This document shows positions 10,151 to 48,167 of a stretch of 49,122 nucleotides of DNA, piece by piece. Source of the stretch: a bacterium. GTDB lineage: Bacteria; Patescibacteriota; Patescibacteriia; JACQRZ01. The first letter of the stretch is position 1, and each line of letters opens with the position of its first letter. The notes beneath the pieces were generated by a model. It worked only from the letters and a program-made list of their open reading frames with translations. It was not told where the DNA came from and ran no database searches. The stretch lies in assembly GCA_023246095.1 (NCBI GenBank), contig JAHFJA010000006.1:1-49122 (forward strand). Reading direction: 5' to 3'. The translations under genes were made by a program, and so were the position numbers.

Positions 10151-10223
10151 GCTGACGTAGCTCAGTTGGTAGAGCACGTCCTTGGTAAGGACGAGGTCTC
10201 GGGTTCAAGCCCCGACGTCAGCT
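10151..10223 (+). tRNA. tRNA-Thr (anticodon GGT)
   Basis: 7-bp acceptor GCTGACG/CGTCAGC, D arm, anticodon loop TTGGTAA, T arm GGGTTCAAGCCCC; CCA not encoded. Confidence 0.95.
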
Positions 10224-11227: not shown

Positions 11228-11943
11228 TTGGTGTGTAATAATGATATGGAAGCTAACCAACAAAATCATACTGGTGAAATTTGTTTTTTGTATCAGAGGG
11301 ATTTTTTGAGCGCAAGTGAGATTGCCGAGAAATTATCTTTGTCAATTGATGCGGTGTATTATTGTTTGAGAAAAAATAAGATACCACGACGGACAACAAC
11401 AGAACAGAATATAATGAGATTCGAAAAGACACCATCTACCTTCCTATTAATGAGCATCTAAGCGATATTGATAGAGGGTTGTTAATTGCAGGTATTATTA
11501 TGTATTGGTGTGAGGGATCCAAGAGAGGAGATGGAAAGACGGTTGACTTCGCAAACAGCGACCCGACTCTAATTATATTGTTTCTTAAGTTTTTACGATC
11601 ATTGCTCCATGTACAAGAGAAGAAACTACGATGCTATCTGTATTGTTTTGCAAATCAAGATACTGACAACCTTATTGATTATTGGTCAAGCTTAATTGAA
11701 ATCAGGAAAGATCAATTTACCAAGCCGTATGTTCGAGGTGTCTATAATCCAAGTAAAGAGGGAAGAATGCCCTATGGTTTACTACATATAAGATATGCTG
11801 ACAAGAAACTCTTGTCTTTTATCAAAAATTACATTAATATACTCCCATGTGAGTTAATAAGAAATATGGGCGGTTACCGAAGTGGTCAACCGGGGCAGAC
11901 TGTCAGTAAAGGCAGCTTTATTGAGCAATCAATATCGAATTAA
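11228..11943 (+). pseudogene. Homing-endonuclease-like gene (N-terminal HTH, LAGLIDADG-like motif LLIAGIIMYWCEGSK) split by a frameshift
   Basis: Frame-2 ORF 11228..11461 (HTH, IPRRTTTEQNIMRFEKTPSTF) continues in frame 1 (LPINEHLSDIDRGLLIAGIIMYWCEGSKR...); the switch needs a -1 shift near 11437-11445. Confidence 0.6.
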
Positions 11944-12192
11944 TTGGGTGAATTCGGGGAAATCTTCATCTCAATCTTTGGGAAAAGACAATCCCGAGCC
12001 AAGCTAGGAAGGACATAGGTTTCCTAGACGGTGTAGAGACTAGTGAGTGAGTTCCAACAATACTCTCACAAACAGCGCCCAACCCCGCTTCAAATAGCGG
12101 GTGATGATATAGTCCGTGCTCCTAGAAATAGGGGAATTACATGAAATCTGCTGGCATCGCCTTCGAAGGTTCGAATCCTTCACCGCCCACCA
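11868..12192 (+). tRNA. tRNA-Tyr (anticodon GTA), interrupted in the anticodon loop; exons 11868..11903 and 12144..12192
   Basis: 5' exon GGGCGGTTACCGAAGTGGTCAACCGGGGCAGACTGT and 3' exon AAATCTGCTGGCATCGCCTTCGAAGGTTCGAATCCTTCACCGCCCACCA form a class II tRNA: acceptor GGGCGGT/ACCGCCC, anticodon stem GCAGA/TCTGC, loop CTGTAAA, long variable arm, encoded CCA. Confidence 0.93.
11904..12143 (+). other. Group I self-splicing intron inserted between positions 35 and 36 of tRNA-Tyr
   Basis: 5' splice after U (11903), 3' end at G (12143); core elements AATCCCGAGCCAAGC (Q-like), GTGTAGAGACTAG (R-like), GATATAGTCCGT (S-like); possible P1: exon CTGT with intron GCAG (11912-11915), U.G at the splice site. 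Confidence 0.9.
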
Positions 12193-12234
12193 TAGCGCCC
12201 TTGAGGGCACCAAAGGCGTCCTTTTGGGACAGTC

Positions 12235-12306
12235 GCCACTTTAGCTCAGTGGTAGAGCAACACTTTTGTAAAGTGAAGGTCCTGGGTTCGAATCCCAGAA
12301 GTGGCT
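12235..12306 (+). tRNA. tRNA-Thr (anticodon TGT)
   Basis: Acceptor GCCACTT/AAGTGGC, anticodon loop TTTGTAA, T arm CTGGGTTCGAATCCCAG; CCA not encoded. Confidence 0.94.
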
Positions 12307-12369
12307 TATTCCCAGCTCTTGAATAGTTTTTTAAGACATGTTATAGTGTCGGCACCTATTTAAACCACT

Positions 12370-12525
12370 ATGTCACAAGATAATCTCATAAAAATGGAGT
12401 GCGGTAATTGTTCCCAGATAGGGTATTATACCTATAAGAACAAGAAAAAACTCAAGAACCGACTTGAGCTGAAGAAGTATTGCAAAACTTGCCGCGTCCA
12501 CCAGAACCACAAAGAGACCAAGTAA
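12370..12525 (+). CDS. rpmG: 50S ribosomal protein L33 (51 aa; absent from the ORF track)
   Basis: Translation MSQDNLIKMECGNCSQIGYYTYKNKKKLKNRLELKKYCKTCRVHQNHKETK with two CxxC pairs. Confidence 0.92.
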   Translation: MSQDNLIKMECGNCSQIGYYTYKNKKKLKNRLELKKYCKTCRVHQNHKETK

Positions 12526-47599: not shown

Positions 47600-47637
47600 T
47601 GTGGAAGTTAAGTATTTGTTATGAATACATTTACATT

Positions 47638-48167
47638 ACGAGGTAAACCTATAAGCCGAATTCTGTCATACCCCCAAAGGGGCGGGGTGACCATCTCTCT
47701 TGCGATACTGTTGCCAGTACCGTCATGCGAGTGTTTATACTCTTGCACCTGGTAGGTGTTTGCCAAGCTGTTGTATCACTACAACACTGGTGCGCTCTTA
47801 CCTCGCTTACGCAAGTCAGCCATTCAAAAGGCTTCCGCACCTTTTCATCCTTACCTGTGCCCCGAAAGGCGTAGGCGGTATTTTATCAAAACATTTCTGA
47901 TTCGACCCCTCTTTTCGGGAGGGCTTTTCTGTTGCTCCGGTAGTTTTGAGGCCACCGAAACCAGTCTGAGACTGATACTATCCCGTGACTTGGTCATAGT
48001 ATCAAACGATCGAGTTGGGGTTTAATCCCCTTCTCTATCATAAAAGATTCTATGATTGCTTCAGGCCGTCGTTAACGGCTACCTCTTCCTTGGTTATACA
48101 CCAAGGGGTGTTCGGACTTTCCTCTATGACACTTGCGCGCCACAGCGATCACCCAGCTTACCTCGTA
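47638..48167 (-). ncRNA. rnpB: RNase P RNA (class A-like), approximate ends
   Basis: Minus strand ACGAGGTAAGC...GAGGAAAGTCCGAACACC...ACAGAATTCGGCTTATAGGTTTACCTCGT; complementary ends. Confidence 0.93.

Follow-up and report, generated by a model that had tools for sequence, protein, structure and literature searches.

A group I intron in a bacterial tRNA-Tyr gene and the putative selfish gene adjoining it

Introduction

The window analysed here, a stretch of 49,122 nucleotides of bacterial DNA, contains a tRNA-Tyr gene that is split within its anticodon. This raises the question of what the inserted sequence is, from where it came and how it reached this site. Group I introns of bacterial tRNA genes have been described for Leu, fMet, Ile and other isotypes, with examples in cyanobacterial tRNA-Leu(UAA) and tRNA-fMet, in Azoarcus tRNA-Ile and in tRNA-Ile2 of Acidovorax and Burkholderia (PMC3984707, PMC4033280, PMC8450103). 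Group I introns are also mentioned for some CPR tRNAs, the isotypes not being given (PMC8172020), and insertions with LAGLIDADG enzymes are known from CPR rRNA genes, in a paper that does not mention tRNA (PMC11270868). No bacterial group I intron hosted by tRNA-Tyr was found in the literature searched, subscription papers lying outside it. A first-pass annotation of the window had called tRNA-Tyr a less usual host. This holds for that literature and fails for genomes, in which the site recurs as described below.

The interrupted tRNA-Tyr gene

The sequence at 11904-12143 is a group I intron located between U35 and A36 of tRNA-Tyr(GUA) (Table 1). Joining of the two exons gave a tRNA-Tyr(gta) of 85 nt whose class II variable arm is short and whose CCA is encoded (ARAGORN score 120.7), and the 11903/12144 join obtained the top score among all U|...G joins tried. 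The Rfam model Intron_gpI (RF00028) matched positions 11893-12135 with 68.2 bits (gathering threshold 50, E 2.7e-15). The borders follow the rule for group I introns, as the 5' exon ends in a U that is paired to a G in P1 and the intron ends in G. The predicted spliced junction reads CUGUAAAUC.

The first-pass annotation had proposed this intron and this host, and its borders turned out to be exact to the base, as judged from the best-scoring join and from the empty site presented below. It was equally right about the U and the G at the two borders, about the insertion between anticodon positions 35 and 36 (U35|A36) and about a P1 with a U.G wobble, which is formed by CUGU|C and GGCAG with the wobble at the splice site. 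Among the checks that it had proposed, the Intron_gpI search scored above gathering, the spliced sequence was recognised as tRNA-Tyr, no second tRNA-Tyr was found in the genome and the same insertion site was found in other genomes. It did not extend to the link with tRNA-Phe introns, to the empty site of a congeneric genome or to the gene that overlaps the tRNA and was probably inserted with it.

Annotation suffers from such an insertion. The default run of ARAGORN overlooked the tRNA-Tyr gene together with its intron, while the intron mode placed the borders off by one base and labelled the gene tRNA-Ser(GGA). That Tyr and not Ser(GGA) is the right identity follows from the group I rules and from the intact gene of a relative.

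Table 1. Coordinates of the tRNA-Tyr locus, its intron and neighbouring genes in the window
Feature	Position	Strand	Evidence or remark
tRNA-Thr(GGT), upstream in conserved Thr-Tyr-Thr tRNA cluster	10151..10223	+	ARAGORN/Rfam; order kept in L236, L239, L240, L241
N-terminal helix-turn-helix piece of tRNA-linked gene	11246..11461	+	Other frame than the rest; homologous to N-terminus of L338, L339
C-terminal open frame, YWxEG domain (conserved 11479-11844)	11404..11943	+	Crosses tRNA 5' exon, stops inside intron
tRNA-Tyr 5' exon, ending in U35	11868..11903	+	Sequence; joined-exon ARAGORN call
P1: CUGU|C (exon 11900-11903 + 11904) with guide GGCAG (11911-11915)	11900..11915	+	U11903.G11912 wobble; 4 exon pairs plus 1
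Group I intron, 240 nt, last base = terminal (omega) G	11904..12143	+	RF00028 11893-12135; best-scoring join; empty site
P2 hairpin, GCAA tetraloop (L2)	11919..11934	+	Helix 57% paired in alignment; MAFFT misaligns
P3 5' strand UUGGGUG, partner CGCCCAA 12076-12082	11944..11950	+	Pseudoknot with P7; 7 pairs, 100% paired, 2 covarying
P4	11954-11958/11993-11997	+	Covariation alignment
P5	11963-11966/11985-11988	+	Covariation alignment
P6	11998-12000/12030-12032	+	Covariation alignment
P6a hairpin	12004..12027	+	7/7 pairs covary
P7 5' strand GACUA (segment R), partner UAGUC 12110-12114 (segment S)	12038..12042	+	Invariant, fully paired in 16 introns
Extra P7.1-like hairpin between P7 and P3, loop UGAG(U)YCCAACAAUA/UGAGYCCCAACAAUA	12043..12069	+	5/5 pairs covary, 100% paired
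P8 hairpin	12084..12101	+	Covariation alignment
P9 hairpin, GAAA tetraloop (L9)	12119..12134	+	Sequence; RF00028 match
tRNA-Tyr 3' exon from A36, encoded CCA	12144..12192	+	Sequence; joined-exon ARAGORN call
tRNA-Thr(TGT), downstream in conserved Thr-Tyr-Thr tRNA cluster	12235..12306	+	ARAGORN/Rfam

In the genome to which the window belongs, RF00028 gave one match even at E 10, besides a fragment of 13.6 bits. No other tRNA-Tyr was detected among the 34 intact tRNAs or by DNA search of the assembly (94.8% complete, 40 contigs), which leaves a small chance of a copy in a gap. The tRNAs for Phe, Trp, Cys and Pro were also absent from the 34 detected ones, which reflects either assembly gaps or undetected interruptions.

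Secondary structure of the intron

The window intron was aligned with 15 tRNA-Phe introns (MAFFT, 16 introns in total). The alignment backs P3, P4, P5, P6, P6a, P7 and P8. Pairing was found in 87% of the alignment cells and two-sided changes in 29 of the 53 pairs, with a covariation score of 0.39 compared to 0.17 after shuffling and at most 0.17 after sliding. The P4-P6 domain and the P3/P7 pseudoknot are supported by covariation, P7 itself being invariant and thus only consistent with the fold. The low scores of P2 and P9 are explained by loops that were misplaced by the sequence alignment.

The S segment GAUAUAGUCC and the GNRA loops L2 and L9 presumably match subgroup IC3. Introns of this subgroup have no elements between P7 and P3, whereas the window intron displays an extra hairpin there, as judged from core signature and helix layout.

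An empty site in the same genus

A genome of the same genus (G009) carries an intact tRNA-Tyr gene that is 98% identical and lies, as in the window, in a Thr(GGT)-Tyr-Thr(TGT) cluster. Window positions 11865-11903 and 12144-12525 align to positions 9153-9115 and 9114-8713 of that locus (L236), from which the 240 nt are cleanly absent (window 11903|12144 corresponding to 9115|9114). This exact empty site rules out a chance match. The gene directly upstream, which overlaps tRNA-Tyr in the window, is likewise missing from G009, where 54 bp replace the 684 bp found in the window between 11180 and 11865.

The taxonomic family comprises 11 genomes. The tRNA-Tyr gene is intact in six more of them (G001, G002, G004, G007, G008, G010), and one member (G006) has an intron of its own in this position. 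Since most of the family has the empty site, a gain is simpler than a loss, suggesting that the intron arrived at the locus recently.

Relationship to tRNA-Phe introns

BLAST searches in 384 genomes of the class returned, as top DNA matches assignable to a tRNA, overwhelmingly introns of tRNA-Phe, with about 70-74% identity over intron positions 39-213. A tRNA-Phe intron of the same genus also came first in a global pairwise comparison, the identities of which are gap-lenient and good for ranking only; G009 is a same-genus carrier of a Phe intron. The window intron resembles the tRNA-Phe(GAA) introns of the class, which interrupt U33|G34 in G009, G001 and many others, in its core sequence, in P6a and in the P7.1-like hairpin with its loop. 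It differs from them in being inserted into another tRNA, two bases further 3', and in having the guide GGCAG instead of GGUCC.

As the full-intron tree left its place unsettled, a core-only tree was used, in which the window intron is nested inside the Phe introns with moderate tree support. AU tests rejected a single origin of all Tyr introns (p=0.0003) and likewise of those found in the class and its relatives (p<1e-20); a placement outside the typical Phe clade was weakly rejected (p=0.039). A grouping with the L138/L063/L287 clade was kept (p=0.58), and placements with Asn introns were kept too. Introns at the Tyr site are thus polyphyletic. The core and the P7.1-like hairpin place the window intron in the tRNA-Phe lineage of the class, moderately supported by the tree, and most simply it would be a Phe intron that was retargeted by a new guide sequence, the switch presumably running from Phe to Tyr. 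The P1-P2 end resembles Asn and Tyr introns as much as Phe introns, and a chimera of a Phe-type core with an Asn/Tyr-type head is possible.

Recurrence of the insertion site

Group I matches were obtained in 126 of the 288 genomes of the class. Where the host could be assigned, it was mostly tRNA-Asn(GTT), interrupted at U35|U36, or tRNA-Phe(GAA), interrupted at U33|G34 (e.g. L181-L195, L248-L285), and in a few cases tRNA-Tyr at U35|A36. Asn and Tyr introns use the same guide because the exon end CUGU is common to both tRNAs. A search of named genomes revealed tRNA-Tyr genes that are split at this very position in Yanofskybacteria (L063), Moraniibacteriota (L138) and Omnitrophota (L111, L120), as well as in many Clostridia. 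The pattern scan of these genomes delivered, among the matches listed, at least 26 interrupted tRNA-Tyr genes and mostly intact tRNA-Ser genes (at least 82 CGA and at least 5 TGA). The Rfam score was above gathering for L111, L120, L138 and G006, while L063 was matched at E 4e-9. The tRNA-Tyr site is used repeatedly in genomes, and this host is not unique to the window.

In gut Clostridia (L058, L062, L124 and others) the inserts at tRNA-Tyr U35|A36 measure about 200-250 nt. Those searched gave no Rfam match at E 0.1 and were therefore not called group I; they possibly form a divergent group I lineage. A Bacilli contig (L094) has a 602-nt insert at the same site. In G006, the neighbouring Thr(GGT) and Tyr(GTA) tRNA genes of locus L237 (C6) are both apparently interrupted by introns, and a cluster of RF00028 matches is located at C1:112312-117496.

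The gene adjoining the tRNA

The gene upstream of tRNA-Tyr changes frame somewhere between about 11430 and 11460, owing either to a real mutation or to an assembly error. Homologues were detected in 38 out of 145 class genomes and, using another member as query, in 66 out of 241 sampled genomes of the phylum (27%). In 38 of 39 unselected class loci (L338-L376), a co-oriented tRNA begins at the stop codon of the gene, with tRNA starts ranging from 47 nt before to 22 nt after it; in one of these 38, which is frame-broken, the tRNA starts 13 nt after the last match. The phylum sample (L397-L426) displayed a co-oriented tRNA in 30 of 30 loci, at -93 to +79 from the stop. As 29 of these loci were new and one was already counted in the class set, the joint tally amounts to 67 of 68 unselected loci, for a chance adjacency of about 0.26% per locus (given a density of some 50 tRNA genes per megabase). 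Of 72 cases tallied, 29 have the stop codon within the tRNA itself, near nucleotides 8-10 or 13-15.

Members of this protein family precede tRNA genes of about 15 isotypes, and the protein tree is sorted by isotype, requiring 16 changes where the minimum is 14 and shuffles gave a mean of 32.6 and a minimum of 27. An intronless tRNA-Tyr gene follows each of the three closest relatives of the window protein (46-54%). Other copies of the Tyr type lie in front of the interrupted tRNA-Tyr in L111, L120 and L138, and none was found near the Tyr introns of G006 (L237) and L063. Nine members are present in one genome of about 0.6 Mb (G456). The family is read here as tRNA-gene-specific selfish elements lodged at tRNA 5' ends.

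The protein is composed of an N-terminal helix-turn-helix (HTH) and a C-terminal domain with an invariant Y..EG. Searches of Pfam, NCBIfam and PHROGs assigned the latter to no family. Phage records contained neither similar DNA nor a similar protein, and no tRNA-adjacent HTH/YWxEG family was found in the literature searched, again with subscription papers outside it. An AlphaFold2 model from four sequences was weak (pLDDT 70). Foldseek delivered no significant match of the model in the PDB, and its weak, non-significant viral matches included LAGLIDADG and other DNA endonucleases. In a profile comparison (hhalign), its helix lined up in the same register as that of LAGLIDADG_3, with P=0.011 and a probability of 3.7%. 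Free-standing LAGLIDADG homing endonucleases are alike in size, in a helix ending in an EG motif and in this weak profile alignment; in contrast to them, the linked protein matches no family or fold significantly, possesses an N-terminal HTH and sits at tRNA 5' ends. It is endonuclease-like by behaviour (sporadic, multicopy, isotype-specific, with a clean empty site) and not by family membership. Members of the family are probably free-standing homing endonucleases that may help ORF-less introns to spread.

Discussion

Archaeal bulge-helix-bulge tRNA introns share the location in the anticodon loop, but they are short and usually lie at 37/38. The length of 240 nt, the position 35/36, the U|G borders and the RF00028 match rule out such an intron, and the same match together with introns of the same type in relatives, that is in independent genomes, rules out an assembly artefact; both readings have a negligible probability. 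An IStron was also ruled out, as no transposase lies in or beside the intron. A locus that no longer splices, with tRNA-Tyr supplied from a gap in the assembly, would fit the incomplete set of tRNAs in a 94.8% complete genome of 40 contigs, in which Phe, Trp, Cys and Pro are missing likewise. The core pairs, both splice sites and the tRNA body are intact, however, and the exons share 98% identity with the intact gene of the same genus, which makes a dead locus very improbable. More weight, though still distinctly little, is given to an intron inherited or transferred inside one tRNA-Tyr-specific family with no tRNA-Phe origin. U35|A36 is also used in G006, G274, L063, L138, L111, L120 and Clostridia with the same GGCAG/GCAG guide, and the grouping with the L138/L063/L287 clade is compatible with the data; but the common guide is forced by the common CUGU exon, both AU tests of Tyr monophyly gave rejection, and BLAST and the P7.1-like hairpin favour Phe introns.

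Concerning the adjoining gene, a host regulator or a processing factor of the adjacent tRNA would account for the N-terminal HTH, the fixed place 5' of tRNA genes and the isotype-sorted tree. Such a host function would hardly be expected to be sporadic (38/145 and 66/241 genomes), to reach nine copies in one genome (G456), to be cleanly absent from the same locus within a genus and to be frameshifted, as is the window copy; it is considered unlikely, if less so than the alternatives for the intron. A selfish element is preferred.

In the joint account reached here, to which a probability of about 0.85 is assigned, a recently gained group I intron splices tRNA-Tyr, derives from a Phe host switch and probably arrived with the linked gene. 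The sole tRNA-Tyr gene detected is split by this ribozyme of about 240 nt. In the precursor RNA, P1 would arise from pairing of the guide GGCAG with CUGU|C; guanosine would then attack after U35, followed by attack at the terminal G, yielding tRNA-Tyr(GUA) as expected from established group I chemistry. The tRNA-Tyr precursor is thus predicted to be spliced. An intron of the tRNA-Phe(GAA) lineage with a new guide would have entered tRNA-Tyr, probably together with the HTH/YWxEG gene, whose product may cut the empty tRNA-Tyr gene, after which gene conversion would copy both the gene and the intron, a route known as collaborative homing (see the review PMC3984707). The arrangement resembles that of phages, in that a separate gene adjoins an ORF-less intron in a shared conserved gene and the empty allele (L236) lacks both. 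It differs in that cellular tRNA genes are concerned and that the protein, a putative endonuclease, belongs to no described family.

Compared to the known bacterial tRNA group I introns, the window intron is a similar small ORF-less ribozyme of the anticodon loop, with a U.G in P1, a terminal G and an RF00028 core; it is set apart by its site in tRNA-Tyr (U35|A36), the extra P7-P3 hairpin and a gene linked outside the intron. It adds tRNA-Tyr as a host to a known kind. It also suggests how, through a change of guide, a single intron lineage can pass from tRNA-Phe to tRNA-Tyr, with the exact empty site of the same genus representing the state before. The larger point is a protein family with an undescribed domain at the starts of tRNA genes, sorted by isotype, across a phylum that looks like Patescibacteria. 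The source organism is probably one of them, to judge by the small genomes in its class and phylum and by the named bacteria that carry similar introns. Tentatively, and at somewhat less than even odds, these proteins may constitute a phylum-wide undescribed homing endonuclease family at tRNA 5' ends, with one lineage per isotype and often with conserved tRNA bases as stop codon, whose cutting would help ORF-less group I introns to spread and switch between tRNA genes, the tRNA-Tyr locus being one example. If they are endonucleases, tRNA genes of these reduced genomes house selfish elements in large number, and collaborative homing is extended beyond phage genes to tRNA genes of cells.

Elsewhere in the window (47636-48164, minus strand), a bacterial class A RNase P RNA was identified, in which a stretch of 167 nt stands against 15 positions of the model.
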